Of a stretch of DNA of 64,000 bases, positions 723-58,288 are shown in pieces. Position numbers and translations under genes: made by a program. This DNA comes from Cupriavidus sp. EM10. Its GTDB lineage: Bacteria; Pseudomonadota; Gammaproteobacteria; Burkholderiales; Burkholderiaceae. Every line of letters starts with the position of its first letter. The stretch's first letter is position 1. The stretch covers positions 2,356,001-2,420,000 of the forward strand of contig NZ_CP076060.1 in the NCBI RefSeq assembly GCF_018729255.1, read 5' to 3'. The notes beneath the pieces are model-generated. The model did no database searches. It saw only the letters and a list, made by a program, of their open reading frames with translations, and was not told where the DNA came from.

Positions 723-1657
723 TTACTTCAGCAGCGCCAGCGTTTCCTGCAGAGACGCCGGATCAAAGATTGCACCACCAACCAGGTTGCCGTCGATGCG
801 CTTGGTCATGCCGGCCAGCACCTTGCCCGGGCCGCATTCGATCACATGGGTGACACCCTCGGCAGCCATCTTCTGCACGCACTCGACCCAGCGCACCGGC
901 GCAGCCGCCTGGCGCACCAGCGCATCCTTGATCTGGGCCGGATCGTTGACGATGGCCACGTCGACGTTGTTCACGAGCGGAATCGTCGGGGCGGAGAACG
1001 CCAGGCCAGCCATGCGTTCGCGCAGGCGGTCCGATGCGGGCTTGAGCAGCGACGAGTGGAACGGCGCCGATACCGGCAGTGGCAGCGCGCGCTTGGCGCC
1101 CTTGCCCTTGGCGATTTCGCAGGCCTTTTCCACTGCCGCCTTGTTCCCGGCGATCACGACCTGGGACGGGGCATTGAAGTTCACTGCCTCGACCACACCG
1201 GCGCCAGCCGCTGCGGCTTCCGCGCACGCGGCGCGCACGTCGTCATCGGACAGGCCGAGGATAGCGGCCATGCCGCCCTCGCCCACCGGCACCGCTTCCT
1301 GCATCGCCTGGGCGCGGAAGCGCACCAGCGGCACGGCGTCCGCGAACGGGATCACGCCCGCGGCCACCAGCGCGGAATACTCGCCAGGCTGTGACCCGCC
1401 ACCAGGGCCGGCGCCGGACCGCCGGCGTCGAGCCAGGCGCGGTACACGGCAACCGCCGCCGTCAGCATCACGGGCTGCGTGTTGGTCGTCAGGTTCAGGT
1501 CTTCGGCAGGGCCTTCGGCGATCAGCTTGCCGATGTCCTGGCCCAGCGCCGTCGAGGCTTCCTCGAGCGTGGCCCGTACCACCGGGTTGTCGGCAAACGC
1601 GTTCAGCATGCCAACCGACTGCGAACCCTGTCCGGGAAAAACGAATGCGAATTTCAT
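723..1657 (-). CDS. fabD: Malonyl-CoA:ACP transacylase FabD (single-base frameshift)
   Basis: Loads malonyl groups from CoA to acyl carrier protein for fatty acid elongation. The N-terminal part (residues 1-91) has the GQGSQ motif at 9-13 and the nucleophile elbow GHSL with Ser90. Directly after GHSL the frame breaks. Adding one G to the run at about 1384-1385 (plus-strand CC) gives GHSLGEYSALVAAG and joins a 214-residue remainder carrying the expected APFHSSLL histidine. Restored length is about 311 residues, normal for FabD. The enzyme is essential and unique here, so I read the break as a base-calling error. It lies between fabH and fabG. Confidence 0.93.
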
Positions 1658-1735
1658 CGGAAATCCAGTCTAGCTATACAAGGTTTCAACGTTGCGAACG
1701 GTGCGGCACGCAAGGGCGCGCGCACCGGCCGCATA

Positions 1736-2716
1736 TTACATGCGCAGCAGCACCGCGCCCCAGGTGAAGCCGCCGCCGACGCCTTCCATCAGCACGGTCT
1801 GCCCCGGCTTGATGCGGCCATCGCGCACGGCAACGTCCAGCGCGAGCGGAATCGACGCTGCCGACGTGTTGCCATGCTCGTGCACCGTGGCCACCATGCG
1901 CTCGCTCGGCAGGCCCAGCTTCTTGGCCGTGCCCTGCATGATGCGGATATTGGCCTGATGCGGAATCAGCCAGTCGATCTCGTCGGCCTGCATTTCAGCC
2001 GCGGCGATCGCCTCGCGCGCCACCTTGTCCAGCACGGTCACGGCCAGCTTGAACACGGCCTGGCCGTCCATGTGCAGGAAGGCGTTGCCGGTGATGGCGC
2101 CGCCCGACACATTGCCCGGCACACACAGGATGTCCACATGATTGCCATCCGAATGCATGGCCGACGACAGGATGCCCGGCTCATCCGAAGCGCTCAGCAC
2201 GACGGCGCCCGCGCCATCGCCAAACAGCACACAGGTGGTACGGTCGTTGAAATCGAGGATGCGCGAGAACACCTCAGACCCGATCACGAGCACGTTCTTG
2301 TGCGAGCCGCTGCGGATGAACTTGTCCGCCGTCGACATTGCATAGACAAAGCCCGAGCACACGGCCTGCAGGTCGAATGCCGCGCAATGGTTCGTGATGC
2401 CAAGCTTCTGCTGCACCAGGCAGGCGGTGCTCGGGAACACGAAATCGGGGGTCGACGTCGCCACGATGATCAGGTCGATGTCCTGGCGGTCGATGCCGGC
2501 GGCGGCAATCGCCTGCTCGGCGGCCTTGACGGCCAGGTCGCTCGACGTGACATCGGATTCGGCCCAGTGGCGCGCGGAAATGCCGCTGCGCGAGACGATC
2601 CACTCGTCGCTGGTCTCGATGCCCTTTTCGGCAAGCTGCACGGCGAGGTCGTGATTCGTGACGCGTCGCGGGGGCAGGTAGCTCCCCGTGCCGATGATTT
2701 TTGCGTACTTGGTCAT
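1736..2716 (-). CDS. fabH: Beta-ketoacyl-ACP synthase III FabH
   Basis: Condenses acetyl-CoA with malonyl-ACP, the first step of type II fatty acid synthesis. The 326-residue protein has normal length and the complete triad: Cys120 in QAVCSGF, His253 in PHQANIR and Asn283 in HGNTSAAS. It follows plsX by about 90 bases and precedes fabD by about 80, the usual beta-proteobacterial order. The second cysteine at 99 (PSTAC) is conserved in the family but is not the nucleophile. Confidence 0.97.
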
Positions 2717-2806
2717 GAGTATGTCGGATCGTGGTGCTTACCGGCCCGCCCGGGCCAGGCCATCGGGCGGAACGTCCGGCCACCCGCCTGCGGCGGGCGC
2801 GCGGCC

Positions 2807-3886
2807 TCAGGCGGCACGGGTATCGGAATGTGGGTCCGGCGAGTCGGTCTCCGGGCCGCCCGTCGCGGCGCCAGCGGCACCGGACTTGTTGGCAAAGGCC
2901 TTGGCAATGCGCTCGATGACGCCATTTCTGGCCGCATCATACCCGCGTTTTATCGCCCACTCAAAAGAATGGGCGTCGGCGGAACCGTGGCTCTTGATCA
3001 CCAGCCCCCGCAGCCCCAGCAGCGATGCGCCGTTGTAGCGGGCGGGATCGAGCCGCCGCGCCAGGCGCGACAGCACCGGCATCGCCACGGCCGCCAGCAG
3101 CTTGGTGAACCACGAGCGCGTGAACTCTTCCTTGATCATGCTGCCGATCATCTTGGCCAGGCCCTCGGTGCTCTTGAGCGCCACGTTGCCGACGAAGCCG
3201 TCGCAGACGACGATGTCGGTCGTGCCCTTGAAGATGTCGTTGCCTTCCACGTTGCCGTAGAAGTTGAGCTCGGAAGCGCGCAGCAGCTCGCCGGCGGCCT
3301 TGACCACCTCGTTGCCCTTGATCACTTCCTCGCCAATATTGAGCAGGCCCACCGTCGGGTGGTCCTTGTGATCCACCACCGCGACCATGGCCTCGGCCAT
3401 GCGAGCGAACTGCAGCAGGTGCTCCGGCTCGCAGTCGGCGTTGGCACCGAGATCGAGCACCGTGGTGCCCCAGCCCTGTTCGTTGGGAATCGTGGTGGCG
3501 ATGGCCGGCCGCTCGATACCTTCGAGCGTCTTCAGCACATAGCGTGAGACCGCCATCAGCGCGCCGGTATTGCCAGCGGAAATACAGGCGCCAGCCTTGC
3601 CTTCCTTGACTTGCGTCACGGCCACGCGCATCGAAGAGTCTTTCTTCTTGCGCAGCGCCACTTCCACCGGGTCATCCATGGTGATGACTTCGGTCGCGGG
3701 CACGATGGTCACGCGCGGATGATCGCTTGCATGCAGCTTCTTCAGCTGTGCGCCGATGGCGTCGGGCAGGCCGACGAGGATCATCTCGGCGTCGTCGTGA
3801 CGGGAAAGAAAACTGATCGCTGCCGGCACTGTCACGGAGACTCCGTGATCACCGCCCATGCAGTCGATAGCGAGCTTGATCGTCAT
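2807..3886 (-). CDS. plsX: Phosphate acyltransferase PlsX
   Basis: Makes acyl-phosphate from acyl-ACP, feeding PlsY for the first acylation of glycerol-3-phosphate; a peripheral membrane enzyme. The 359-residue product starts [15 protein letters not shown], the family's signature N-terminus. That fixes the ATG at 3884-3886 rather than an in-frame upstream codon at 3943, which would add 19 residues unlike the family. The C-terminus is Gly/Ala/Asp-rich and probably disordered. A hairpin terminator separates it from rpmF upstream, so some transcription may start in between. Confidence 0.96.
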
Positions 3887-3991
3887 TGTTTCCTGATACG
3901 GAAAGCGCGCCGGCACCCGCCGCATCGGTTCGCGGGGACGCAACCAGCCGGACGCGCGGATACGCTGCGGTGCGGGCGACGAGCGCCCAAC

Positions 3992-4019
3992 AAAAAAGCG
4001 GCAACGAGCTTGCCGCTTT
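3992..4019 (-). terminator. Rho-independent terminator after rpmF
   Basis: On the minus strand, downstream of rpmF, the stem AAGCGGCAA / TTGCCGCTT with loop GCTCG is followed by a T run. It lies about 60 bases past the L32 stop and about 105 bases ahead of plsX. It would let L32 be made in excess over the fatty-acid genes. Confidence 0.8.
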
Positions 4020-4078
4020 CCTGTTTTACACCTGACAACGTGCGCGAGCGAGACACAGGGTCACGCCAGACGACCTGG

Positions 4079-4258
4079 TCAGTCGTTCTTGGTCTTGATG
4101 ACCTTGCGACCACGGTAGTAGCCGTTCGGGCTGACGTGGTGGCGCAGGTGCGTTTCGCCCGTGGTCGGTTCGACGGCCAGGGGGGCGACCGACAGATGGT
4201 CGTGCGAACGGTGCATGCCGCGCTTGGACGGCGACTTCTTGTTCTGTTGAACAGCCAT
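4079..4258 (-). CDS. rpmF: 50S ribosomal protein L32
   Basis: Small protein of the large ribosomal subunit. The 59-residue product begins [20 protein letters not shown] and ends VIKTKND, typical of bacterial L32. A good Shine-Dalgarno (AAGGAGT) lies just upstream of ATG 4256-4258. It sits between yceD and plsX, the conserved yceD-rpmF-plsX-fab arrangement. The proteobacterial copy seen here has no CxxC zinc pairs. Confidence 0.97.
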
Positions 4259-4379
4259 GATGACTCCTTCGAGAATTTTGCGATATTAACACACGCATCC
4301 TGCGCAAGGCGTAGCCGGGGCCCGGCTGGATGCTTGACTTGCTACCGTGAGACCCGCCACGGCCACGCTCCGCGCGGCT

Positions 4380-4997
4380 TCAGTGTTTGGTCTTCAGGCC
4401 GGCCAGCGCCGCAAAGGGCGAAGGCCGCTTTTCTTCCGCGGGCGGAGCCTCGGGCTCCACCTCGCCGTCCGCGCCGGTCACGAGCGACTCGTGCACCGTC
4501 GGGCAGACTTCATGTTTCGGTGCCGTAGGCAACGCCAACAGCACTTCGTCTTCAATCAGTTCCAGCACCGAAAATTTCTTAGAACCCACGAGCACGTCGA
4601 GTTCGTCGTCATCCATCGGCACTTCGTCGGCGGCCTCTTCGCTGGCCACCACTTCAAAACGCATGTCCGTCGCGATCGGCTCGGGGTAGATCCCCAGGCA
4701 GCGCTGGCAATCGAGCCAGACGCGGCCGTTGACCGTCACGTCGACGAACAGTCGCTGCGATACCGGCGCACCGGGCGCCGAGGCCTCTTCGCGGACAAAG
4801 CCGCTCAGTGTGTACGAGAAAACTTCGTCCCGGGCCGACGCTGGCGCATCGGCGGCCGTCTCGGCTAAGATGCGCGGCAAATCGCGCATCGGCACCTCTC
4901 CCGCCACGTTGCCACCTTTGCGGCAGAAGGCGAAGAGATCGGTTTCACGCAGGTCGAATGCCACGGCGGACGCCGTTGGCTGGGTCGGCTGACTCAT
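4380..4997 (-). CDS. yceD: YceD/DUF177 family protein
   Basis: Homologue of YceD (DUF177), a protein linked in E. coli to 23S rRNA accumulation and almost always encoded next to rpmF. The 205-residue product has the family's CQRCL motif at about 122-126 followed by an acidic stretch (MDDDELDVL). It ends in an acidic Pro/Glu-rich tail. I chose MSQPTQP at 4995-4997; an in-frame start at 5045 would add 16 residues unlike the family. The molecular role is not established. Confidence 0.88.
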   Translation of the reverse strand: MSQPTQPTASAVAFDLRETDLFAFCRKGGNVAGEVPMRDLPRILAETAADAPASARDEVFSYTLSGFVREEASAPGAPVSQRLFVDVTVNGRVWLDCQRCLGIYPEPIATDMRFEVVASEEAADEVPMDDDELDVLVGSKKFSVLELIEDEVLLALPTAPKHEVCPTVHESLVTGADGEVEPEAPPAEEKRPSPFAALAGLKTKH

Positions 4998-5152
4998 ACA
5001 GGCTGAATCGCAATAAATGCCTTGTTTGCCACACGTCGCTGGCACCGTAATGTGCCTGTGCAGCCAAACGCGCGATTATACGTTGAATTTCCCGGAGCGG
5101 TCAAAGTATACAAGCCGAAAACCGTTCCTCACCGCTTCTGGCGCCATTCTAT

Positions 5153-5752: not shown

Positions 5753-5755
5753 ACC

Positions 5756-6487: not shown

Positions 6488-6505
6488 TGTGTGCCGCCTT
6501 CGACT

Positions 6506-6519
6506 ACTAGTTAACTAGT
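6506..6519. repeat. Perfect 14-bp palindrome ACTAGTTAACTAGT
   Basis: Lies 18 bases past the stop of the RsmI-like gene in the convergent gap before sppA. It contains GTTAAC and two CTAG tetranucleotides, which are rare in GC-rich proteobacterial DNA. It carries stop codons in every frame. Function is unknown. Confidence 0.6.
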
Positions 6520-6532
6520 AAGCAGTTGGCGC

Positions 6533-6562
6533 CTTTCCGCCCGCCTCCCGCCAGGGAGAGGT
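6533..6562. repeat. GC-rich palindrome past the sppA stop
   Basis: The segment CCTCCCGCCAGGGAGAGG forms an imperfect hairpin about 20 bases beyond the sppA stop codon. It is a weak relative of the better palindromes at 30398-30427, 46557-46590 and 50239-50271. No T run follows. Confidence 0.45.
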
Positions 6563-6580
6563 CGGCAAGGCGCCAGATTC

Positions 6581-7758: not shown

Positions 7759-8163
7759 TCAAACGGACACCCGGCTCCGCTCAACCGGCGTCGGGCGCAA
7801 AAAAGGGGCTTCGGGCTGCCAGAAGACGGCGCCCTCGCGTTCCTCGATGCGGAGCTTGGCCAGCGCGGCGCCCCGGCAAGGGCCGCCCACGCAGAGGCCG
7901 GTGTCTGGCGCGTAGGTCGCGCCATGTGTCGCACACATCAAGTATAGGCCCGCACTATCGAAAAACTGTCCTTCCTGCCAGTCGAGCTCCATGGGCACAT
8001 GCGCGCACTGGTTCAGGTAGCCGTAGGCCACGCCGTCGTAGCGGATCGCAAAAGCGCCAATATCGCGCGATGCCATGCGAACGGTGAAGCGCACCCCGGC
8101 GCCGCCATCCACCAGGTCGGCCGCCGCGCAAAGGCGGCGCGGCGCCAGGTTGTCGTCAGGCAT
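7759..8163 (-). CDS. Small Rieske [2Fe-2S] protein
   Basis: A 134-residue single-domain Rieske protein, probably a soluble electron carrier or redox-linked accessory protein. The ligand pairs are CAH (about residue 54) and CATH (about 77), spaced as in Rieske ferredoxins. No membrane segment is visible. The ATG at 8161-8163 overlaps the stop of the HAD gene by 8 bases, implying translational coupling; upstream in-frame codons run back into the HAD gene. Partner and substrate are unknown. The order rluC-HAD-Rieske-sppA appears to be one minus-strand run. Confidence 0.88.
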   Translation of the reverse strand: MPDDNLAPRRLCAAADLVDGGAGVRFTVRMASRDIGAFAIRYDGVAYGYLNQCAHVPMELDWQEGQFFDSAGLYLMCATHGATYAPDTGLCVGGPCRGAALAKLRIEEREGAVFWQPEAPFLRPTPVERSRVSV

Positions 8164-8815
8164 GGTCGAGCAGCCACTGCTGCAGGTCGGCAATCGACGT
8201 GGCGCAATGCACGGGCGCCATGGCGCGCAGCGAATCGGCCGGATGTGCGCCATAGCAGACACCCAGACCCTGCGCCCCAGCGTTGATTGCCATCTGCAGA
8301 TCGTGCGTGGTGTCGCCGATCATGACCGTGCGCTCGATGTCCTGACCCAGTTCGCGCGTGAGCTCATGCAGCATGGCCGGATGCGGCTTCGAGAATGTCT
8401 CGTCCGCGCAACGCGTGGCGTCGAACAGCTTGCCCAGGCCCGTGCTGGCCATCGCGCGTTCCAATCCCACGCGGGTCTTGCCGGTAGCCACGCCAAGGAA
8501 ATAGTGCTCGGCGTGCAGCGTCTCCAGCATTTCGCGCACGCCGGGGAACAGCACCAGATCGGCGTCGCGGGTCAGGAAGTGATAGCGGTAGCGCTCGGCC
8601 AGGCGCGGATAGTCGGCCGGATCGAGCGTCGGCACGGCATACGACAGCGCGTCCTTCAGCCCAAGCCCGATCACGTGGCTGGCGGCGCTGTCGTCGGGCA
8701 CCGGCAAGCCCAGGTCGCGGCTGGCCAGTTGAATGCACTTGGCGATGGTCGGGGTGGAATCCATCAGGGTTCCATCCCAGTCGAAGACGATCAGGTCGAA
8801 GCGCTGCCTGCCCAT
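8156..8815 (-). CDS. HAD hydrolase, phosphoglycolate phosphatase-like
   Basis: Haloacid dehalogenase-superfamily phosphatase of 219 residues. Motif I FDWDGTLMDST gives the nucleophile and acid aspartates near residues 11 and 13. Motif II lies in VATGKTR, with a downstream lysine in SKPHP and the motif IV pair in MIGDTTHD. Length and cap resemble Gph/PGP-type enzymes, but the substrate cannot be read from sequence. It starts about 60 bases after the rluC stop and overlaps the Rieske gene. Confidence 0.88.
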   Translation of the reverse strand: MGRQRFDLIVFDWDGTLMDSTPTIAKCIQLASRDLGLPVPDDSAASHVIGLGLKDALSYAVPTLDPADYPRLAERYRYHFLTRDADLVLFPGVREMLETLHAEHYFLGVATGKTRVGLERAMASTGLGKLFDATRCADETFSKPHPAMLHELTRELGQDIERTVMIGDTTHDLQMAINAGAQGLGVCYGAHPADSLRAMAPVHCATSIADLQQWLLDHA

Positions 8816-8876: not shown

Positions 8877-9874
8877 TCACGACGCGGCGCCGATCTGGGT
8901 CAATTGTTGCAAAAAATCGACACATTCGGGAGGCAGCGGCGCAGATACAGTAATCGGCTCGCCTGTGCTCGGATGGGTGAACGTCAATTTGTGCGCATGC
9001 AGGAACATCCGTTTGATGCCCGGCTTCGCGCCGCTGCGGGAAAGTGCCTTGTTGAGTCCAAAATCGCCGTATTTCTCGTCGCCAACGATGGGAAAGCCGG
9101 TCGACTGCAGATGCACGCGGATCTGGTGGGTGCGTCCCGTCTTCAGCTCGGCCTCCAGCAGCGTGAACCCTTCAAAGGCCTTCACGCGGTTGAAAACCGT
9201 ATGCGACGCCAGCCCATCGGCCTGGACACGCACGCGGCGCTCGCCGTCGGGCGTGCTGTACTTATATAGAGGCAGCTTGACGTGCTGGCGCGCATTGGGG
9301 AATTCGCCGGCCACGCAGGCGAAGTAACGCTTGTCCATGTCGCTGCCACGAATCTGCTCGTGCAGGTGCACCAGCGCCGACCGCTTCTTGGCCAGCACCA
9401 GGATGCCCGACGTTTCGCGGTCCAACCGATGCACCAGTTCCAGGAACTTGGCCTCCGGGCGCGCCCGGCGCAGTTGCTCGATCACGCCGAAAGCCACGCC
9501 CGACCCGCCATGCACGGCCACGCCCGCGGGCTTGTCGATCACCAGCAGGTGGGTGTCCTCGAACAGGATCGGGAATTCTCCAGCCGGCACGAAAGTGCCT
9601 TCTGCTGCCTTTTCCGCCATGCGAATCGGGGGGATTCGTACGACATCGCCCAGCTTCAGCCGGTAAGTGGCATCGATCCGCCCCTTATTCACCCGCACCT
9701 CGCCCGAGCGCAGCACCCGATAGATGTGGCTCTTGGGCACCCCTTGGCAACCTTCAGCAGGAAGTTGTCGATGCGCTGCCCTTCGGCGCTTTCGTCGATC
9801 GTGACATACGCCACCTGGAGGCCGCTGGCGCGGGAGCGCGGCTCCGTTTCAATTTGATGGCGTAACTCATTCAT
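8877..9874 (-). CDS. rluC: 23S rRNA pseudouridine synthase RluC (single-base frameshift)
   Basis: Makes pseudouridines at 955, 2504 and 2580 of 23S rRNA in E. coli. The N-terminus MNELRHQIETEP and half of the S4 domain (EGQRIDNFLLKVAKG) are in one frame. The rest (PKSHIYRVLRSGEVRVNKG, then the RluA-family domain with HRLDRETSG catalytic Asp and GRTHQIRVH) is in another. One added C at the plus-strand run 9740-9743 joins them as AKGVPKSHIY. Restored length is about 332 residues, normal for RluC. I treat the break as a sequencing error. It is divergent from rne, as in E. coli. Confidence 0.93.
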
Positions 9875-10876
9875 TTTCAATATAATTTCCCGGCCGTACC
9901 CGGCCAAATGCCGGGAATGTGCGACCTGTGTAAGCGATGTTTGGCGCGAACCCCTACCGGATGCCTGCCATTTTTGCGGCAAGCCGGAACGGGATATGCA
10001 GGGCATCCAGGCAGTTGTCTTGGGTAGTCCCACCAGTATCCGCGCGAGATCTGGCATTTTACACTTCGGGTTGCCGCCAGCCCGGCCTGTCTCCCGCATG
10101 TTGCGTACCCCGCGCAGCGCCAGACAGGCAAATGGTGGCAATTGCAGCACGCACGCGCCGCGCCGGCGCGCAGGAAGTCGCCCAGAGGCGGCTTCGGCAA
10201 CCAGCCGGCCGACACGTTGGAAACAGAGTGTTCAGGTAGAAAAGAATTCAATGCGGGTGCCAGCAAAGGGCATCCGCATCGGTGAGAGAAGACCGCCCGC
10301 ACCGGGAACCGGTGCCGGCCCGGCAGGTGACACCCTGCCAACCGACCTGCAGTACCCGCCGCGACTTGCCGGAAATCGTCGTAGTTCGATGTAGTCGACG
10401 ATCTGGCAGCGGCGCCCGAGCGCAGAACGCTAACAAGCAGCGGCGCGCCCGCCAGCGGACAGGTCGGTTTGGCAATGGCATGCAACTGCTGCGTCCGGAT
10501 GACTTGCTCTTTGACGCGTCCTGGCCATCCCGGCCCGGCTGCGATGGGCAGCGTTGCCCGTGCCGCATGGCACGGCCGACATGCCGCCCTCGCCCCCGGC
10601 CCGCCGGTATCCGCCAGCTATCGCTGCATCGGGAGCAAGGCCCATTTGCCCTCTCCCGACCCGGCAGCGGATCGCCCGCAGGCTTTTTGCGGATGACGGG
10701 ACGCCGACACCCTCTCCTTTCACCCGCGCCCAGCCGGCCGCATTAGCAGAACGCGCCCGGCAACTCCGGCAATTCTCCCGCCCTCGCTCTCTTTCCTCGC
10801 GTGCTCCCTGGAACGTCGCGGGCATGACCCATTCATGACCCATCGGGCTCCCGCGACACTGGAGTGAGGTATTGCG
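9875..10876. other. 1 kb gene-free divergent region, rluC / rne leader
   Basis: No ORF here resembles a known protein on either strand and none has convincing start context. It must hold the rluC promoter and a long rne leader. Two short perfect hairpins sit side by side: GCACCGG-GAA-CCGGTGC at 10299-10315 and GGCAGG-TGACAC-CCTGCC at 10322-10339. In E. coli the rne 5' UTR has hairpins that let RNase E control its own mRNA; I infer, without proof, a similar role. Confidence 0.6.
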
Positions 10877-17879: not shown

Positions 17880-19270
17880 TCAGCCCGGCCGGTCCTCCTG
17901 CTGCCCCGCGCTCTCGTCGGCCGGGGCAGTTTCGGTGGTGGCTGCGGTGGTGGCTTCAGTGGTCGTTCCCCCGCCCATCATCCCCGACGTTCCCAGCAAC
18001 TGCTCGGCAATCTCGCCCGGCAGCGCCTCCACGGTGCGCAGTTTGCGCTCCATCTGCCGTGTTCGGACTTCCGCCTGCTCGATATTGCGCGCCGCGCGCA
18101 CCAGCGTATCGCGCGTCCTGGCCAGAACTTCGCCAAATTTGCCAAATTCCGTCTTCACGGCGCCCAGCACCTCCCACACCTCGCTCGACCGCTTTTCCAG
18201 CGCCAGCGTCCGGAATCCCATCTGCAGGCTGTTGAGCAGCGCCGTCAGCGTCGTGGGGCCAGCCACGGTCACGCGGAAATCGCGCTGCAGCATGTCTGTC
18301 AGCCCCGGTCGCCGCAGCACTTCGGCATAGAGCCCTTCAGTGGGCAGGAACAGGATGGCGAAGTCGGTGGTGGCCGGCGGCGCCAGGTATTTCTCCGCGA
18401 TGGTCTGCGCTTCGCGGCGCACGGCGACTTCGAGTTCGCGGCTGGACGCGTTCACACCATCCACATCGCCCCGCTCCTGCGCGTCGACCAGGCGTTCGTA
18501 CTGCTCCTTCGGGAACTTGGCGTCGATGGGCAGCCAGACCGGGCTGCCGCCGACCTCGCGGCCCGGCAGGCGGATGGCAAACTCCACCCGCGCCCCGAGC
18601 TCGCGACGGTCTCCACGTTCTTGCTGTATTGGTCCGGCGTCAGGATCTGTTCGAGCAGCATGGCCAGCTGCACTTCGCCCCAGGTGCCGCGCGTCTTGAC
18701 GTTGGTCAGCACGCGCTTGAGGTCGCCCACCCCCTGCGCCAGCATCTGCATTTCGCCCAGCCCGCGATGCACCTGCTCCAGCCGCTCCGACACCAGCTTG
18801 AACGATTCGCCGAGCCGTTGTTCCAGTGTGGCGTGCAGCTTCTCGTCCACCGTACGTCGCATTTCCTCCAGTTTGGCCGCGTTATTGGCCTCGATATCGC
18901 GCAGCTTCTGCTCCAGCGTCGTCCGCACGTCCGCCAGCCGGCGTTCGTTGGCTTCCGACATCTGCGCAAGCTGTTGCTGCTGCACCGTGGCGATGCTCGT
19001 CAACTGAGACGACAACTGCTGCTGGAACCGCAGCATCTGCTGCCCCGATTCGCTGCGATTGCCGCGCGCCGTCTCGGCCAGCTCGGTGCGCAGTTCGCGC
19101 TCCAGGCGCTCCAGCCCGCGCGCGGTGTCCTCGCGGACGTCGTCGCGCAGGTCGCCGAGCATCGGCAACAGCTCACCGGTGCCGGTGCGCGACTGGCGAA
19201 TCAACAACACGATCAGCAGGATCACGGCCGCCACCGCGGCGGCCAGGGTCAACAAGGGGATCAGCGACAT
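17880..19270 (-). CDS. rmuC: DNA recombination protein RmuC (single-base frameshift)
   Basis: RmuC-family protein, associated with limiting recombination between inverted repeats and possibly a nuclease. The N-terminal part has one membrane helix (about 3-25) and a long coiled coil (about 40-190), ending in RGTWGEVQLAMLLEQIL. The frame breaks after NVETVASSG. Adding one G (plus-strand C run 18593-18596) continues into ARVEFAIRLPG and the conserved WLPIDAKFPKEQYERL core, to a Thr/Glu-rich tail. Restored length is about 463 residues. ATG 19268-19270 (MSLIPLL) puts the helix at the N-terminus. The break is most likely a sequencing error. Confidence 0.9.
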
Positions 19271-19298
19271 GGGAGTGAAAGCTGGCAAGCCGGTCGCC

Positions 19299-20303
19299 TC
19301 AACGGCGACGCGGCATGACCTCGGGATTGATCACGGTCTGCGGCTTGCCGGCCTGCGGGCCGGCGTCGAGCGCGGCGATCAGGTTGTCGGCCGCCAGATT
19401 GGCCATCGCGCGCCGCGTCTTTTCCGAAGCGCTGGCGATGTGCGGCGTCAGTACCACGTTCGGCACGGTCAGCAGGTCGGGATGCACGCTCGGCTCGCCT
19501 TCGAACACATCGAGCCCGGCGGCGAAGATCCTGCGATCGCGCAGCGCGGCGGCCAGCGCGGCGTCGTCGACAATGCCGCCGCGCGCCAGGTTGATCAGCG
19601 TGGCCGTGGGCTTCATCAGCGCCAGCTCCGCCGCGCCGATGGCATGGTGGCTTTCCGGGCTGTACGGCAGCACCAGGATCAGATGATCCGACTGCTTCAG
19701 CAGATCCGCCTTGCTGACGTAGCGCGCATTGAGCGACTGCTCGACATCGGCCGGCAACTGGCTGCGGTTGTGGTACAGCACCTGCATGCCGAAGCCCGCC
19801 GCACGGCGCGCCAGCCCCTGGCCGATACGGCCCATGCCGAGGATGCCGAGCGTGCTGCCGTACACGTCCATGCCGACCAGCATGTCATAGCTCCAGCGCT
19901 CCCACTTGCCGGCGCGCAGGTAGTGCTCGCTCTCGGTCACGCGGCGCGCGGTGGCCATCAGCAGCGCCCAGCCGAAATCGGCGGTGGTCTCGGTCAGCAC
20001 GTCCGGCGTGTTGGTCGCCACGATGCCTGCGGCGGTCAGCGCCGGCACATCGAGGTTGTTGTAGCCCACCGCCATGTTGCAGACCGCCCGCAGCTGCGGC
20101 AGCGCGGCAACCAGGTCCCCATCGATCCGGTCGGCCGCGTTGGCCAGCACGCCAGCCTTGCCAGCCAGCCGGGCACGTAGCGCCGCCGCGTCGAGGACCA
20201 CGTCCTCCTGGTTGGCATCGACATCGAAATACTGCGAAAGGCGCTCGATCACATCGGGAAAGATGGCGCGTGTGACAAGGACGGGGGGCTTCATGGCAGT
20301 CAT
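19299..20303 (-). CDS. D-2-hydroxyacid dehydrogenase (glyoxylate/hydroxypyruvate reductase type)
   Basis: NAD(P)H-dependent reductase of the D-isomer family, most like GhrB/glycerate dehydrogenases that reduce glyoxylate or hydroxypyruvate. It shows the Rossmann motif GILGMGRIGQGLARR, the substrate Arg in NLARGGIVDD, the Glu in DVFEGEPSV and the His in TPHIAS. Starting at ATG 20301-20303 (MTAMKPP) the protein is 334 residues; this ATG overlaps the nhaD stop as ATGA, which favours it over the next ATG at 20294. True substrate is not readable from sequence. Confidence 0.9.
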   Translation of the reverse strand: MTAMKPPVLVTRAIFPDVIERLSQYFDVDANQEDVVLDAAALRARLAGKAGVLANAADRIDGDLVAALPQLRAVCNMAVGYNNLDVPALTAAGIVATNTPDVLTETTADFGWALLMATARRVTESEHYLRAGKWERWSYDMLVGMDVYGSTLGILGMGRIGQGLARRAAGFGMQVLYHNRSQLPADVEQSLNARYVSKADLLKQSDHLILVLPYSPESHHAIGAAELALMKPTATLINLARGGIVDDAALAAALRDRRIFAAGLDVFEGEPSVHPDLLTVPNVVLTPHIASASEKTRRAMANLAADNLIAALDAGPQAGKPQTVINPEVMPRRR

Positions 20304-26779: not shown

Positions 26780-26855
26780 TCCCCGATAGCTCAGTCGGTA
26801 GAGCGCCGGACTGTTAATCCGTAGGTCCCTGGTTCGAGCCCAGGTCGGGGAGCCA
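26780..26855 (+). tRNA. tRNA-Asn (GUU)
   Basis: A 76-base cloverleaf. The acceptor arm TCCCCGA pairs with TCGGGGA, the D-arm is GCTCAGTCGGTAGAGC, and the anticodon arm CCGGACTGTTAATCCGTAGG region carries anticodon GTT. The T-arm is CCTGGTTCGAGCCCAGG. The discriminator G and an encoded CCA close the gene. A terminator follows 14 bases later. Confidence 0.97.
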
Positions 26856-27467
26856 ACCGATAGAAGATGAAGGCCGATGCGAAAGCATCGGCCTTTTTCT
26901 TTCTCCGCTGCATTCTTTGTCCGCTGCATCCAGGCCACCGCTCCGTGGCACCCTCCCCTCACCCGCACGTTCCAGGAAGTCCTGGCCGATGTGGCTGTGA
27001 TGAACAGCCGCTGGCTCCGACCTGGACCAGGCAGCGAGGAAGCGCTTCGAACGCCTCATGACGCTGGTGTTGCGGACATCGGCCTGGGGTAGCCTGTTGC
27101 CTCGATGCAAAACCGTCGAAAAGGCAGTCCGAAAGGCGTACTCCGGCACATTATCTGAGGTATCATCTCGGATTGCCCTGAATAGCTTGACTCCCGTCCG
27201 GTATACCTGTAAAAGCTTACCGGGCGTATTTCTTGCGCAATATCCACGGAAACAGGTAGTCGCCAAGTTTTTACCTAGCTAGGAAAATTTGGCCCGTCAC
27301 CCCTGACACAGGCAGTACGGATTTCGGTCCGCAGCAGGTTCTAGGGGGCGCACCACGGCATTCGCCGCAGCGTGCGATACCACCGTCACGGCAGGCTCCG
27401 GAGCCCGGCGTGACACGTTTCCCTCCTATGAACCCACCGCCTCTGGCGGTTATCCTGAAGGACTGAA
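26856..27467. other. 612-base gap between tRNA-Asn and rpsU, no gene recognised
   Basis: Contains the tRNA terminator, then about 550 bases with several short ORFs on both strands, none resembling a known protein or having a good ribosome site. The stretch from about 27100 to 27300 is less GC-rich than its surroundings. It carries GTATAC at 27201-27206 within an inverted repeat (CCGGTA at 27198-27203, TACCGG at 27218-27223) and the palindrome CCTAGCTAGG at 27274-27283. The rpsU promoter or leader must be here. Confidence 0.6.
26870..26899 (+). terminator. Rho-independent terminator of tRNA-Asn
   Basis: A perfect stem AAGGCCGATGC / GCATCGGCCTT with GAAA loop is followed by TTTCTTTC. Confidence 0.92.
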
Positions 27468-27680
27468 TTGACTAAGATCGTTCTGAAACCGGGCGAGCCC
27501 GTTGAAGTTGCAATGCGTCGTTTCCGTCGCTCCATTCTGCAGACTGGACTGATCGTGGAACTGAAGAGCCGCACCGCCTACGAAAAGCCGACGACCGAGC
27601 GCAAGCGCAAGAAGAAGGCTGCCGAGGCCCGTCTGCGCAAGCGTCTGCGCATGCAAATGCTGCCGAAGAAGCTCTACTGA
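27468..27680 (+). CDS. rpsU: 30S ribosomal protein S21 (paralogue, TTG start)
   Basis: Small ribosomal subunit protein that helps mRNA engagement. The 70-residue protein reads [19 protein letters not shown] and ends MQMLPKKLY, with the basic [18 protein letters not shown] core. The start is TTG at 27468, preceded by GAAGGACT. No ATG fits the N-terminus. Burkholderiaceae often have more than one S21 gene, and the divergent N-terminus suggests this is a secondary copy. It is followed by a strong terminator, so it is monocistronic. Confidence 0.95.
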
Positions 27681-27697
27681 TTCGGGCATTGCCAAAG

Positions 27698-27727
27698 AAA
27701 AACCGCCAGTTCGCTGGCGGTTTTTTT
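27698..27727 (+). terminator. Rho-independent terminator of rpsU
   Basis: The stem AAAAACCGCCAG / CTGGCGGTTTTT with loop TTCG is followed by more T. The A run before it would also let it stop transcription from the convergent LysE-family gene. Confidence 0.93.
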
Positions 27728-27766
27728 CGTCCACGTTTCCCGGCTGGCCGGGAAGCGATCGAAATG

Positions 27767-28384
27767 TCAGGTGCGCGTGGCGATCAACGCCCCGGCGCCG
27801 ATCAGCGTGATGCCGCCCGCGCGCTGCACGTTGGCTTGCGCGCGCTGCGAGGTCAGCCGCGTGGCCAGCGAGCGGGCCAGCAGCGCATAGACCATGGCAT
27901 TCGCCGTAGCCAGCACCACGAACGTCGGAATCAGCACCACAGCCTGCGGCCAGAAGGCCAGTTTGGCGTCGATGAACTGGGGCACGAAGGCCACAAAGAA
28001 CACGATGCTCTTCGGGTTCAGCGCCGTCACCAGCCATGCCTTGGCAAAGCGCTGGCGTCCGCTGCCCGACTGCGACGCCACATCGAGCGAGCGCGCACGA
28101 CCGGCGGTGCGCAGGGCCTGCACGCCCAGATAGACCAGGTAGGCGGCGCCGGCCCATTTCAGGCCCGTGAACAGCGTGGCCGAGGCCGCCAGGACCGCGC
28201 CCAGGCCCGCCATCGACAGCGTAAAGGCGGTCAGGTCTCCAGCGGCCACGCCAGCCACCGTGGCATAGGCACTGCGGCCGCGATGCGCAAGGGCATCGCC
28301 GATCACCAGGAGGATGGTCGGCCCGGGGATGATCAGCAGCACCACGCTGGTCAGCACGAACGTGATCCAGTGTTCGAAAGACAT
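27767..28384 (-). CDS. LysE/RhtB family amino acid exporter
   Basis: A 205-residue inner-membrane exporter with about six hydrophobic segments. It has the family N-terminal motif IIPGPTILLVIGDAL followed by GRSAYATVAGVAAGD, and the conserved AKAWLVTALNPKSIVFFVAF. Substrate is unknown; relatives export lysine, threonine, homoserine or leucine. It is convergent with rpsU and divergent from the ABC exporter genes. Confidence 0.9.
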   Translation of the reverse strand: MSFEHWITFVLTSVVLLIIPGPTILLVIGDALAHRGRSAYATVAGVAAGDLTAFTLSMAGLGAVLAASATLFTGLKWAGAAYLVYLGVQALRTAGRARSLDVASQSGSGRQRFAKAWLVTALNPKSIVFFVAFVPQFIDAKLAFWPQAVVLIPTFVVLATANAMVYALLARSLATRLTSQRAQANVQRAGGITLIGAGALIATRT

Positions 28385-28587
28385 GGGTTCTCCTCGCTAC
28401 GTCGTTGTTATCTGAAAACGATGAGCGTACGCCTGTCCGCCCGGCCCTGCCAGTCCCGCCGCCTCCCCCACTCCGCCCATGCGTGCCCGTATGACCCTGC
28501 GAATGGAATTGTCTTGCTGCGATGCGCCAACAATGCGTCACGCGATGGCCGGCATAATGGGAGCAAATCGCTCGCAGGGACTTTGCC

Positions 28588-38063: not shown

Positions 38064-38980
38064 TCAGATAAGGCGCTGCACCGCCGATGCCTCGTCACTG
38101 GCATCGTCGTTGGCAGCAGCCAGGGTCTCGGGAGCATCGGGCTGGATCTGCGCGTACACCGGCTGGGCAGCCGTCACGCGGTCGCGCACCAGCGCGGCGT
38201 ACTGCGGATTCATCTCAAAGCCGACAAAGCGCCGGCCGTGGCGCACGCAGGCCACAGCCGTGGTGCCGCTGCCCGTGAACGGGTCAAGCACGACGCCGCC
38301 CGGCGGGCAGCTCGACAGCACCATGCGCTCGACGATCTCCAGCGGCTTCTGCGTCGGATGATCGGCGCGCTCGGGGTCCTGCCGGTGAATGCGCGGCACG
38401 CTCCACAGGTCCTTCGGGTTGTAGCCCACTTCGAGCCACTTCTTGCCCTCGAAGCGCGGACGGCTGCGCGCCTTCTTGGTCTCGGCGTCGTACGGAATGC
38501 GCACCGGGTCCAGGTCGAAGTAGTAGTCGCGCTGGCGGGCAAAGAAGCCGATGTTGTCGTGCACCGACGAGAACTTGCGCGTGGTGCCGCCCATGCTCGG
38601 CACGCGGCGGTCCCAGATGATCTCGTTGATCATCGTCAGCCGCTTCTTGAGCATCACGAACAGCTCGGGCGAGTACTGCCACGTGCAGAACAGGTACAGC
38701 GTGCCCTTGGGGGCCAGCTTCGGGATGATGGCATCCATCCAGCGCTCGGACCATTCCAGGTAGGCATCGCCCGACAGCAGGTCGGAATCGTTGCCATAGT
38801 CCTTGCCCAGGCCATAGGGCGGATCGGCGACGATCAGGTCGACCGACCCGTCTTCGATGCGCTTGATGCCTTCGAGCGCGTCTTCCTGGTACAGGCGGAC
38901 GGCTGCGGTGTCGAGGATGTCGAACGGCGCCGCGGCGCCGCCCTCTTCCGCTTGGGGGTGTCAGGGGGCAGCGCACGCAT
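38064..38980 (-). CDS. Orphan DNA methyltransferase, beta class (single-base frameshift)
   Basis: Solitary adenine-N6 or cytosine-N4 DNA methylase between trpB and trpA. ATG at 38978-38980 shares a base with the trpB stop (TAATG). The first residues [13 protein letters not shown] are in one frame. Adding one G at the plus-strand C run 38941-38943 continues as [15 protein letters not shown] and restores about 305 residues. Catalytic motif [11 protein letters not shown] comes early and the SAM motif [10 protein letters not shown] late, the beta-class order. No restriction gene is adjacent. I recall that Burkholderiaceae share a trp-linked methylase assigned to GTWWAC in Ralstonia methylome work; that specificity is inference here. 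Confidence 0.9.
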
Positions 38981-40173
38981 TACAGCTTCAAGCCTCCACG
39001 TTCGGCCACGGTGTGCATGTCCTTGTCGCCACGACCGGACAGGTTCACCAGCAGCAGCTTGTCCCTGGGCAGCGTCGGCGCCAGCTTGCACGCGTAGGCG
39101 ATGGCATGGCTCGATTCCAGCGCGGGGATGATGCCTTCGATCCGGCAGCAGTCGTGAAACGCCTTCAGCGCTTCGTCATCGGTGATCGGCACGTACTGCG
39201 CGCGGTTGATGTCCTTGAGCCACGCGTGCTCGGGACCCACGCCGGGGTAGTCCAGGCCGGCCGATACCGAATGGGTCTCGATGATCTGGCCGTTCTCGTC
39301 CTGCAGCAGGTAAGTGCGGTTGCCGTGCAGCACGCCCGGCGAGCCGCCGGTCAGCGACGCCGCGTGGCGCCCGGTGTCCAGGCCGTCGCCAGCCGCTTCC
39401 ACGCCGATCAGCTGCACGTCCTTGTGGTCGATGTACGGGTAGAAAATACCCATCGCGTTCGAGCCGCCGCCCACGCAGGCGATCACGGCATCGGGCTGGC
39501 GGCCGGTCAGCTCGGGCATCTGCACCTTCGATTCCTCGCCGATCACGCACTGGAAGTCACGCACCATCATCGGATACGGGTGCGGGCCGGCTACCGTGCC
39601 GATGATGTAGAACGTGGTTTCGACGTTGGTCACCCAGTCGCGCATCGCTTCGTTGAGCGCGTCCTTGAGCGTCTTCGAGCCGCTTTCCACCGGCACCACC
39701 GTGGCGCCCAGCAGTTTCATGCGGTAGACGTTGGCCGCCTGGCGGCGCACGTCCTCGGAGCCCATGTAGACCACGCACTCCATGCCGAAGCGCGCGGCGA
39801 TGGTGGCCGTGGCCACGCCGTGCTGGCCGGCGCCGGTCTCGGCGATCACGCGCTTCTTGCCCATGCGCTTGGCCAGCAGCGCCTGGCCGATTACGTTGTT
39901 GATCTTGTGGGCGCCGGTGTGGTTCAGGTCCTCGCGCTTGAAGAAAATCTGGGCGCCGCCCAGCGTCTCGCTCCAGCGCTGCGCGTGATAGATCGGCGAC
40001 GGGCGGCCGACAAAGTGCTTCAGCTCGCGCTGGAATTCGGCGTTGAAGTCCGCGTCCTGCTGGTAGTGCGCATAGGCCTCGCGCAGTTCATCCAGCGCGT
40101 GGACCAGGGTTTCGGAAACGAAGCTACCGCCATACGGGCCGAAATGGCCTCGGGAATCGGGCAAGTCGTACAT
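38980..40173 (-). CDS. trpB: Tryptophan synthase beta subunit TrpB
   Basis: PLP enzyme that joins indole and serine to make tryptophan. The 397-residue protein has the PLP lysine in [11 protein letters not shown] (about 90), the catalytic Glu in AETGAGQHG and the phosphate loop [13 protein letters not shown] 40171-40173 (MYDLPDS) gives the family N-terminus; the frame is open upstream towards trpF but that part is not conserved. Its stop overlaps the methyltransferase start. Confidence 0.97.
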
Positions 40174-51749: not shown

Positions 51750-53020
<1,271 letters not shown>

Positions 53021-53032
53021 GTCGCCCTCCCC

Positions 53033-53958
<926 letters not shown>

Positions 53959-54040
53959 GCGGGGACCTTGTGGATCGGATGAGTCCGATGCGCGATGCCG
54001 ACCGCCCTTATGTGGCGGCTAACCGACATCGAACCGATAC

Positions 54041-54077
54041 CAAAACGCCCCGCAGGCCGGTTGGCCGCGGGGCGTTT
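54041..54077 (-). terminator. Hairpin between livJ and livH
   Basis: On the minus strand, GAAACGCCCCGCGGCC / GGCCTGCGGGGCGTTTTGG forms a long stem about 20 bases past the livJ stop, with a TTTT in its 3' arm. It probably acts as a partial terminator or 3'-end stabiliser, keeping binding protein in excess of permease. Confidence 0.75.
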
Positions 54078-54096
54078 CGCCAGGATGGCGCCGGGT

Positions 54097-55223
54097 TTAG
54101 TTGGCGGCGGTCTTCGTGGCGTCCTTGTGCCACGTGTAGACGACGAACTTGAACGACTTCAGGTCGCCCTTGGCGTCGTATTCGACCTTGCCGATCGGCG
54201 TGGTGAACGCGTTCTTGTGCATGTACGCGGCAACCTTGGTCGGGTCCGTGCTCTTGGCACCGGCGATGGCGTCGCCGATGATCTTGACGGCGGCGTAGGC
54301 CGGCATCTGGAACGGGCCGTTGGCGTCACGCTTCTTGTCGGCGAAAGCCTTCACCAGCGCGGCGTTGGCCGGGTCGGCCGAGAAGTCCGCCGGCAGCGTC
54401 ACGAGCATGCCTTCCGAAGCCGGGCCGGCAATGGCGGTCACGTCCTTGTTGCCCACGCCTTCGGGGCCCATGAACGTGGCCTTCACGCCCTGCTCGCGCG
54501 CCTGGCGCAGCAGCAGGCCCATTTCCGGGTGGTAGCCGCCGAAGTACACGAAGTCCACGCCCTGCGACTTCAGCTTGGTGATCACGGCCGAGTAGTCGGA
54601 ATCGCCGGCGTTGATGCCTTCGAACACCGCCACGGGATCTTGGCCGCTTCCAGGTCCTTCTTCACCGAGCTGGCGATGCCCTGGCCGTACGACTGCTTGT
54701 CGTGCAGCACGGCAACCTTCTTCGGCTTGACCTTGTTGATGATGTACTGGGCGGCGGCGGGGCCTTGCTGGTCGTCGCGGCCGATCGTGCGGAAGATGAA
54801 GTTGCGCTTCTTCGTTTCGGTCAGCTGCGGCGCGGTGGCCGACGGCGTCACCATCACGATGCCTTCGTTTTCGTAGATATCCGATGCCGGAATCGTCGAA
54901 CCCGAGCACACGTGACCGATCACGTAGTGGATGCCCTGGCTGACGATCTTGTTGGCCACGGCCACGGCCTGCTTCGGTTCGCAGGCGTCGTCCATCAGCA
55001 CCGCTTCGAACTTGTTGCCGTTGGCGCCGCCAGCCGCGTTGATCTGTTCGATCGCGGTCAGGGCACCGGCCTTGACCATGTCGCCGTACTGGGCAACCGA
55101 GCCGCTCATGGGGCCGGCGATGGCGATCTTGACGGTTTCGGCGTTGGCCGAGGTGAAGGCAGCGAGACCGGCAGTGGCAAGCACGGCGGCCATGGCAGTG
55201 GACGTGAGACGGGACAGCGTCAT
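54097..55223 (-). CDS. livJ: Branched-chain amino acid-binding protein LivJ/LivK type (single-base frameshift)
   Basis: Periplasmic leucine/isoleucine/valine-binding protein, about 375 residues when repaired. The signal peptide ends FTSANA, then the mature type I fold begins ETVKIAIAGPMSGS. DDACEPKQAVAVANKIVSQ and HVCSGSTIPASDIYENEGI are family segments. The frame fails after AAKIP at about 54633-54636; one extra base gives PVAVFEGINAGDSDYSAVITKL and the rest. Ribosome site AGGAGCTCCTG precedes ATG 55221-55223. First gene of livJHMGF. The break is probably a sequencing error. Confidence 0.92.
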
Positions 55224-55757
55224 CAGGAGCTCCTCGATTATGTATTGGGTCATTCCGGGCAGAGTCGGCATGACCGGCGCAATCGAACAACACCCGCGAG
55301 GAAGAAGCGCCGCCAGACGCGGCGAACGTACGGCCCAAAGCGGAAGTCGGGCCTGCGGTGAAGACAGTGAAGCGAATGCGGGGCCCGGCATGTGTCGGCG
55401 CACGCACATCCTGCGGATGGCACGTTCGCCGTAAGTTCGGAAAGACAACGTTGATGCGTTCTCTATTGCGCAAGCGCTTCGCCTGCCCCGCTTCTCCAAC
55501 GACGGCTGGCCGGAAGGGTGGCCCGGCTGCCGGTCGGCAAAGCAGTCCGCATTATAGGGGGAAAGTTGCACCCTGATGAAGTGGACTTGTTCGGCTTTGG
55601 AGAAAATCCGACAACTAATGCATCCGGTTGCAACCGCCCCAAGGCAGGAATCGTCGTCAAATTGGCCTTTCACAACAATTGTGCACAGCGGCATTTGCGG
55701 CGCATTCGCTGCTTTGCGCCACCTTGCGCAACCTCGCCCGGTGGCCGGACAAGAGCG
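55224..55757. other. livJ upstream region, no gene
   Basis: About 530 bases between livJ and the gltA terminator. No convincing ORF on either strand. The livJ promoter and any leader must be here; I could not assign hexamers with confidence. A CACAACAATTGTG near-palindrome lies at about 55671-55683. Confidence 0.5.
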
Positions 55758-55790
55758 AAAAAAACGCCCCGGGCTTGCCGGGGCGTTCCT
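55758..55790 (-). terminator. Rho-independent terminator of gltA
   Basis: On the minus strand, AACGCCCCGG-CAAG-CCCGGGGCGTT is followed by TTTTTTTC, about 25 bases past the gltA stop. It ends the sdh-gltA transcript. Confidence 0.93.
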
Positions 55791-55813
55791 GATGCAGCGA
55801 GGCGGAAGGCAGC

Positions 55814-57114
55814 TTAGCGCTTGGCCATGTCCGGCACGGTGCGCGCGGCGTTGCCGTTGAACAGCTGACGCGGACGGCCGATCTTGTATTCCGGATCGGT
55901 GATCATCTCTTCCCACTGCGAGATCCAGCCCGGCGTACGTGCCAGGGCGAAGATGCAGGTGAACAGCGAGGTCGGGATGCCCAGTGCGCGCTGCACGATG
56001 CCCGAATAGAAGTCCACGTTCGGGTACAGCTTGCGGCTGACGAAGTATTCGTCTTCCAGCGCGATCTTTTCCAGTTCCATGGCCAGCTTGAACAGCGGGT
56101 CGTTGTGCAGGCCCAGTTCGTTCAGCACTTCATGGCAGGTTTCGCGCATCAGCTTGGCGCGCGGATCGTAGTTCTTGTACACGCGGTGGCCAAAGCCCAT
56201 CAGGCGCACGCCCGAGTTCTTGTCCTTGACCTGCTTGATGAACTCGCCGATGTGGTCGACGCTGCCGATCTCTTCCAGCATCTTCAGCGCGGCTTCGTTC
56301 GCGCCGCCGTGGGCCGGACCCCACAGGCAGGCCACGCCGGCGGCGATGGCTGCGAACGGGTTCGTGCCCGACGAACCGGCCAGGCGCACGGTCGACGTCG
56401 ACGCGTTCTGCTCGTGGTCGGCGTGCAGGATGAAGATGCGGTCCAGCGCGCGCTCCAGCACCGGGTTCACGGTGTACGGTGCGCACGGCGTACCGAACAT
56501 CATGCGCATGAAGTTGCCCGAGTAGGACAGGTCGTTCTGCGGGTAGATGTACGGCTGGCCGATGTTGTACTTGTACGCCATGGCGACCAGGGTCGGCATC
56601 TTGGCGATCAGGCGGATGGCCGAGATCTCGCGCTGGTGCGGATCGTCGATGTCCATCGCGTCGTGGTAGAACGCGCTCATCGCACCCACCAGGCCCGTCA
56701 GCACGGCCATCGGGTGGGCGTCACGGCGGAAGCCGCGCAGGAAGAATTGCAGTTGCTCGTGAACCATCGTGTGGTTCATCACCGAGTTCACGAACTCTTC
56801 CTTCTGCTTGGCGTTGGGCAGCTCGCCCTTCAGCAGCAGGTAGCAGGTCTCGAGGTGGTCGCACTTCTCGGCCAGCTGTTCGATCGGGTAGCCGCGGTAC
56901 AGCAGTTCGCCCTTGTCACCGTCGATGTAGGTGATCTTCGAGTTGCACGAAGCGGTCGACATGAACCCCGGGTCATAGGTGAACTTGCCGGTTTGACCGT
57001 ACAGCTTGCGAATGTCGATCACATCCGGGCCAACGGTGCCCTGGTAGATCGGCAGCTCAACGCTGGGGAACCATCGGAAAACGATAGCGTGGCTTTCACA
57101 TCGGACGGCGTCAT
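55814..57114 (-). CDS. gltA: Citrate synthase GltA (single-base frameshift near the N-terminus)
   Basis: Condenses oxaloacetate and acetyl-CoA. A 402-residue frame from [14 protein letters not shown] runs to the stop and contains the active-site segments [26 protein letters not shown] and [15 protein letters not shown]. The true start is ATG 57112-57114 ([17 protein letters not shown]) in another frame. One extra base at the plus-strand G run 57065-57068 gives [21 protein letters not shown] and 433 residues, the normal length for type II enzymes. Starting at the internal methionine would lose the N-terminal regulatory domain strand. Read as a sequencing error. Confidence 0.94.
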
Positions 57115-57156
57115 GTCGGTTCCTTCAAATACTGTGAATATTAATGTTGACCAAAC

Positions 57157-57437
57157 TCAGACCGAACGCAGCAGGCTGAGTACCCGTTGCATCGGGGCGT
57201 GTCGAGCTCACCGTCAAGCTCCTTGCGGACAAGCAGCAGGTCCATCAACTCGTTGTCGCTGAGCTCGAACAGCTCGCCCAGCGATGCCACGTCCTCATCG
57301 GACAGGCTCTCCTCGTAACGGTTGAAGAAACGTTCGACGATGATGTCGTTCTCCAGGAGGCCGCGGCGGGCGCGCCAGCGAAGGCGGGCACGCTTGTGCG
57401 GGTCGGCCTGATGGGAGAAAGTGGTGGAAAGACTCAT
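57157..57437 (-). CDS. sdhE: Succinate dehydrogenase assembly factor SdhE (single-base frameshift)
   Basis: Promotes covalent FAD attachment to SdhA. From ATG 57435-57437 (MSLSTTFSHQ) the frame has RLRWRARRGLLENDIIVERF, matching the conserved RGxxE motif, and FELSDNELMDLLL. Near the C-terminus it breaks at the plus-strand G run 57194-57197. One extra base gives DTPPMQRVLSLLRSV and a stop at 57157, about 93 residues. Without the repair the frame reads 16 extra-family bases into the gltA gap. It sits between sdhB and gltA as expected. Confidence 0.9.
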
Positions 57438-57587
57438 GGTCAGCCTTCTTTGACCGGCGCCCCAGCCCGACTTGATACCGCATCGGGCTGACGCGCCGCT
57501 TACATCAGATACATCCACTGCATGCATTGCAGACTGCCTGTCCGCGCAGATCCTGCGGGGGCGCAGAAGGCAGTTTATACCGGGCAA

Positions 57588-58288
57588 TTAAACAGCGCGG
57601 CGAACCATCAGTTCCTTGATCTTGCCAATCGCCTTCGTCGGATTGAGGCCCTTCGGGCACACGTCGACGCAGTTCATGATGCTATGGCAACGGAACAGGC
57701 GGTACGGGTCGTTCAGGTTGTCCAGACGCTCACTGGTAGCCTGGTCGCGGCTGTCCGCGATAAAGCGGTAAGCCTGCAGCAGGCCGGCCGGGCCGACGAA
57801 CTTGTCCGGGTTCCACCAGAACGACGGGCACGACGTCGAGCAGCTGGCGCACAAGATGCACTCGTACAGGCCATCCAGCTCGTCGCGCTCCTGCGGCGAC
57901 TGCAGACGCTCCTTCTCGGGCGGCGGCTCGTCGTTGATCAGGAACGGCTTGATCGAGTTGTACTGCTTGAAGAAGTTCGTCATGTCGACGATCAGGTCGC
58001 GCACCACCGGCAGGCCGGGCAGCGGACGCAGCACGATGCGGTCCGGCAGCTCGCGCATGTTCGTCAGGCAGGCCAGGCCGTTCTTGCCGTTGATGTTCAT
58101 CGCGTCCGAGCCGCACACGCCTTCGCGGCACGAGCGACGGAACGAGATCGTCTCGTCCAGCTTCTTCAGCTTGACCAGCGCGTCCAGCAGCATGCGCTCG
58201 TGACCGTCGAGCTCGACCTCGTAGGTCTGCATGCGGGGGCTGCGTCCTTGTCCGGATCGTAGCGGTAGACTTCAAAAATACGCTTCAT
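57588..58288 (-). CDS. sdhB: Succinate dehydrogenase iron-sulfur subunit SdhB (single-base frameshift)
   Basis: Carries the [2Fe-2S], [4Fe-4S] and [3Fe-4S] clusters of complex II. The true start MKRIFEVYRYDPDKDAAP (ATG 58286-58288) breaks at the plus-strand G run 58235-58239. One extra base gives RMQTYEVELDGHE and joins the remaining 214 residues. These hold CREGVCGSDAMNING for the 2Fe cluster, CILCASCSTSCPSFW and CHSIMNCVDVCPKGL for the others. Repaired length is 233. Restarting at the internal MQTYEVEL would lose the first strand of the ferredoxin fold, so I favour a sequencing error. Confidence 0.94.

Follow-up and report, generated by a model that had tools for sequence, protein, structure and literature searches.

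Systematic nanopore errors have been described as mainly insertions and deletions (indels) in homopolymers, and a standard pipeline was reported to leave an excess of pseudogenes (PMC8011154). Deletion errors have been found to follow longer runs, which the Kastor report ascribes to conservative estimates of run length (PMC12007338). The DNA analyzed here, referred to below as the window, is a stretch of 64,000 nucleotides from Cupriavidus sp. EM10 (contig NZ_CP076060.1; G000:C1:2356001-2420000 in our numbering, in which G000 is the assembly) that lies within an assembly of 6.66 Mb in four contigs, and in which the reading frames of nine genes, among them fabD, gltA and sdhB, are each broken by what appears to be the loss of one base. 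The pattern resembles the residual homopolymer errors of long-read-only bacterial assemblies, in which frame-shifting indels inflate the number of pseudogenes and are exposed by comparison with relatives (PMC8812927, PMC8011154, PMC12007338). It is unlike the long-read-only cases described there in that conserved G/C runs of only five to six bases are already short (6 of 25 and 2 of 4, respectively) and in that the events form a clear local cluster. Pseudogenes that arise by genuine single-base slippage would look identical at any one site; unlike those, the changes seen here go in one direction in long runs, extend genome-wide and strike single-copy housekeeping genes. Judging from the sequence comparisons described below, we consider it highly probable that the organism itself carries all nine genes intact and that the assembly consensus under-counts homopolymers, those of G/C above all. 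What we describe is thus almost certainly an ordinary sequencing artefact and not a real feature, and its use is as a warning against trusting the resulting pseudogenes.

Nine frame breaks compared with relatives

The comparison used syntenic stretches from nine of 12 Cupriavidus genomes (all but G001, G002 and G012), one of which, G008, spans the window only from about 8.1 kb onward. In the aligned pieces the sister genome G010 shared 92% DNA identity with the window, G011 89% and the remaining seven relatives 82-87%. The alignments were made with MAFFT in chunks that held the window and four to nine of these relatives, and a strict rule was applied in which a gap had to be present in the window alone, with five ungapped columns on each flank and at least five sequences. 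The test covers the window outside about 26.2-28.8 kb, an interval in which two chunks did not align and one held only four sequences.

An earlier note, made from the letters of the window alone, had proposed that nine genes are each broken by one missing base. All nine breaks are present, none more than about 15 bases from where that note had put it, and every affected gene is on the minus strand. Under the strict rule the window alone carries nine one-base deletions and a single one-base insertion. The proposed sites account for eight of these deletions (1383, 9740, 18605, 53664, 54633, 57064, 57193 and 58238), and there the window is one base short of up to nine relatives; the ninth, at 7798, lies in an A run and had not been proposed. 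The sole insertion, at 10217, falls within no coding open reading frame (ORF). The exception is the DNA methylase gene, whose break (38941) fails the strict test because the length of the linker there differs in most relatives. Its two halves are found in two frames by tblastn, and the place of the break in this variable linker cannot be fixed. The proposal that all nine are contractions and none an expansion was borne out, with the methylase judged against G010 alone. The proposal that eight of the nine lie in G/C runs was approximately right: a run visibly shortened relative to at least one relative is seen at seven of the nine sites, placement is ambiguous in rmuC and in the methylase gene, and the fabD run is short.

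A protein-level test used 54 G010 genes as tblastn queries against the window and eight relatives. It is blind to fabD, which is outside the 54, and to sdhE, in which the break is too close to the end of the gene. Eleven genes were flagged in the window, seven of them at the nine sites, compared with one to five in each of the eight relatives. In relatives, livH, livJ and rluC attract a few flags that fall in residues 1-90 of the G010 ORF and look like over-extension of starts. The four additional flags in the window were judged to reflect over-extended or noncoding G010 ORFs. The one at 20.3-21.9 kb concerns first residues only, the one at 24.9-25.6 kb is also flagged in four relatives, the one at 37.6-38.2 kb concerns the upstream part of trpA, which is whole in one window ORF, and the one at 27.8-29.5 kb was dismissed by judgement on the same grounds of over-extension or lack of coding.

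Dependence on run length and direction of change

Over about 227 kb in which G000, G010 and G011 align, a run counted as conserved if it was identical, flanks included, in two of the genomes, and the remaining genome was then scored. In G000 the conserved G/C runs that were one base short amounted to 3 of 225 at length four, 6 of 25 at length five and 2 of 4 at length six; overall, 11 of 254 runs of at least four were contracted and none was expanded. No contraction was seen among 246 such runs in G010, where a run of seven shows a difference of another kind, and one was seen among 246 in G011 (Fisher p of 0.0009 and 0.006 for G000 against each). For runs of at least five the contrast was 8 of 29 against 0 of 43. 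In this assembly the probability of shortening climbs steeply with the length of the G/C run, from about 1% at four to a quarter at five and about half of the few runs at six, and an under-counted run inside a gene would break its reading frame. The reads presumably came from a long-read platform with no short-read polishing, of which the four contigs for 6.66 Mb are an indirect sign.

The deficit is also visible in plain counts over the whole assembly. Exact G/C runs of six number 467 in G000 (70 per Mb) compared with 89-132 per Mb in G001-G008, exact runs of seven number 37 compared with 65-106 in eight relatives (G003, G004 and G006-G011) and 87 predicted from the pooled relatives, and there is one exact run of eight compared with 6-23 in relatives and 11.6 predicted. 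Poisson p values for these counts ignore variation among genomes, and the genome sizes of the relatives were rounded. A/T runs of six are not depleted, since G000 has 586 of them, or 88 per Mb, which is within the 77-123 of eight relatives. Under-calling fits because long G/C runs are deficient genome-wide while A/T runs of six are not. On the focus of the earlier note on G/C the evidence is mixed: these counts agree with it for runs of six, but the contrast between G/C and A/T runs of at least five is not significant (see below), and some events, among them those in dnaG (see below) and at 7798, are at A/T runs. Its reading of the breaks as homopolymer under-calling rather than decay is supported by changes that depend on run length, are concentrated in this assembly, go one way in G/C runs of at least four and affect single-copy housekeeping genes and noncoding runs alike.

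A mismatch-repair-deficient mutator lineage that amasses changes in run length would look alike at single sites, as its length changes would be focused on homopolymers. Mutators lengthen runs as well as shorten them, however, and no expansion was seen among the 254 G/C runs of at least four. The affected genes include housekeeping genes. The mutator is further disfavoured because substitutions on the G000 branch are not raised; across 140,687 columns there are slightly fewer of them (2459) than on the branch of the sister G010 (2754). We therefore regard a mutator as very improbable.

Several observations weigh against under-calling of G/C runs and should be set beside the evidence above. Runs of three show no bias in G000 (1 contracted and 2 expanded of 1811), and two insertions stretch a G/C run from three to four. 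The local density of G/C runs of five, over 264 kb, is 678 per Mb compared with 658-735, which is no depletion. A/T runs of at least five are contracted in 3 of 31 cases in G000 compared with the 8 of 29 for G/C, a difference that in this small sample is not significant (p of 0.10), and A/T runs of five are contracted in 2 of 22 cases in G011. In fabD the run has just two to three bases, the event in dnaG affects an A/T run, and 16 of 37 one-base G/C deletions in the wider scan described below leave a run of fewer than three. Under the same strict rule and in the same window, the relatives have 0-13 frame-shifting singletons each, coding and noncoding together, compared with 10 in the window. 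The most are in the distant G005 and G007 (13 and 8), and the sister G010 has 3. Taken alone, the raw singleton count is not decisive; the excess sits in coding sequence and in runs. Some of the events could be genuine mutations or products of how the sequences were aligned.

The same pattern beyond the window

A scan for changes found in one genome only compared G000, G010 and G011 over about 227 kb of aligned G000 sequence. It replaced a pairwise scan of G000 against G010 (about 404 kb) in which 93 of 316 ORFs were flagged one way and 85 of 321 the other, and which was dropped as too noisy, many of its flags being at gene ends or in gapped alignments. One-base deletions number 47 in G000 (37 of them in G/C), 12 in G010 (7) and 35 in G011 (17), and one-base insertions 13, 9 and 25, respectively. 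A run of at least three is left behind by 21 of the 37 G/C deletions in G000, by 0 of 7 in G010 and by 0 of 17 in G011. When the scan was confined to conserved reading frames and to events at least 15 codons from the ORF ends, frame-shifting singletons were found in G000 at 22 places in 18 ORFs, in G011 at 9 places in 8 ORFs and in G010 at none. The 22 are made up of 21 deletions and one insertion; seven are in the window (six of the named breaks and an event at 53960 taken as upstream of livH) and 15 are outside. Ten G010 counterparts of the broken ORFs outside the window could be named, including acetate-CoA ligase, earP, lepA, a DEAD-box helicase, pmbA, rsgA, gluQ and dnaG. The dnaG gene (G000:C1:2513215-2515088) is present in two overlapping frames, and a search through G000 for another copy of it found none.

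These results bear on the possibility that the strain has truly lost genes through slippage mutations. As it stands, the sequence does have broken reading frames, and run slippage is a real mutational process. Decay is nevertheless excluded in practice because fabD and dnaG are both single-copy and split, and both are held to be essential. The breaks are not confined to backed-up genes, as fabD, gltA, sdhB and dnaG have no second full copy. At most sites both halves remain highly identical to the G010 protein, G/C runs of at least four only contract and never expand, and the sister G010 has no coding frameshift singletons in the same 227 kb. Real decay of these genes has, in our view, next to no chance of being the explanation. 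The breaks in gltA, sdhB and sdhE are near gene ends and are not by themselves proof of lethality. In gltA and sdhB they lie near the start and starts downstream of them are open (ORFs 55814-57022 and 57588-58232), so these two genes are weaker evidence against decay.

A biological device, in which slippage of the polymerase or the ribosome at runs restores the frames upon expression, would be in keeping with the seven of nine breaks that lie in short runs. Homopolymer slippage does occur in bacteria, but a run of four to six G/C is short for such an event. The relatives hold nearly all of these genes in frame, and the shortening extends to non-genic runs, at 27720 where there is no coding ORF and at 53960 upstream of livH, while the depletion is genome-wide. 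Such a device is very hard to credit here. It is just as improbable that the G/C runs are truly shorter through contraction-biased slippage with no rise in substitutions, the frames being rescued by slippage on expression.

Under-calling by the consensus also has consequences for how the assembly can be used. In line with under-calling, the completeness of the assembly is 97.5% in four contigs, compared with 99-100% in 11 of the 12 listed same-genus genomes (the remaining one is at 54%). Scaled up from the 21 shortened G/C runs in the scanned 227 kb or so, the whole genome would have roughly 600, many of them in genes, a figure that is loose because the events are clustered. The assembly is unfit for claims about pseudogenes, gene loss or essentiality, and counts of run lengths against relatives can flag such assemblies without recourse to reads.

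Six of the contractions (five of the named breaks and the event at 53960) fall at 53.6-58.3 kb, within 4.7 kb. In simulation this exceeds a uniform spread of the 21 events over the region (p of about 0.001). G/C runs of at least five are no denser in the cluster (0.64 compared with 0.77 per kb). Low or uneven read depth is likely to be behind the cluster. A strand pattern in the clusters, with 6 of 6 in G at 53.6-58.3 kb and 5 of 5 in C at 80.7-86.4 kb counted from the start of the window, was set aside because it is in line with the G and C runs available locally (13 and 7 in the first, 5 and 25 in the second).

Affected genes and neighbouring features

The coordinates of the affected genes are collected in Table 1. 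Gene names rest on NCBIfam and Pfam matches of the intact G010 copies (FabD, RluC-like, RmuC, methylase, LivH, citrate synthase, SdhE and SdhB).

Table 1. Genes and sites with one-base changes in the window
Feature	Position	Strand	Change	Model on intact G010 copy
fabD (malonyl-CoA ACP transacylase)	723..1657	-	split near 1384, leaving ORFs of 101 and 214 amino acids	TIGR00128
Rieske-domain gene	7759..8262	-	window-only one-base contraction in an A run at 7798, in the last codons; tenth event	
rluC-like 23S rRNA pseudouridine synthase gene	8877..10150	-	split near 9740	RluA-family model
rmuC	17880..19366	-	split near 18593-18605, exact place ambiguous	PF02646
DNA methylase gene beside trpA	38067..39091	-	frame change near 38941-38957	PF01555
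livH	53033..53958	-	split near 53665	NF008011
run just upstream of the livH ATG (53958)	53955..53965		one-base run contraction, absent from the earlier note	
livJ	54097..55499	-	split near 54633	
gltA (citrate synthase)	55814..57114	-	frame broken near 57065, no more than about 16 codons into the gene	
sdhE	57158..57438 (ends approximate)	-	frame broken near 57194, with about 12 codons left to the stop	PF03937
sdhB	57588..58288	-	frame broken near 58234-58241, no more than about 16-18 codons into the gene	

The intact FabD of G010 has 319 amino acids and passes its NCBIfam model, and a second full fabD copy in G000 was not found, the only relative elsewhere in the genome being a 40% paralogue. 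No other full copy of gltA was found in G000, which elsewhere has only distant or partial relatives of 31-41% identity, and no second full copy of sdhB was found there. For two genes the specific assignment is less firm. The best NCBIfam match of the G010 rluC-like gene is the RluC model, which is below its cut-off while the RluA-family model is passed, and the G010 SdhE is below the NCBIfam cut-off of its specific model and passes the Pfam one. The livJ ORFs of the window, at 54097-55473 and 54582-55916, match complementary parts of PF13458, a periplasmic-binding family.

The contraction at 53960 is probably noncoding because the LivH model begins at residue 26 of the longer G010 ORF. The contraction at 7798, which like it was absent from the earlier note, leaves the Rieske domain itself untouched.

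The DNA methylase gene directly adjoins trpA in both the window, where trpA is whole, and G010, and the linker near the start of the methylase gene evolves fast and varies in length. Outside the window, a gene for an SdhA-family flavoprotein (nadB-like, which is a guess) at G000:C1:2870808-2872342 is in two pieces in overlapping stretches. Within the window, the stretch at 27000-28500, which follows a tRNA-Asn gene (26780-26855), varies in length among the relatives, with about 1.4 kb more in G010, and gives no clean multi-genome alignment; it is possibly an integration site.

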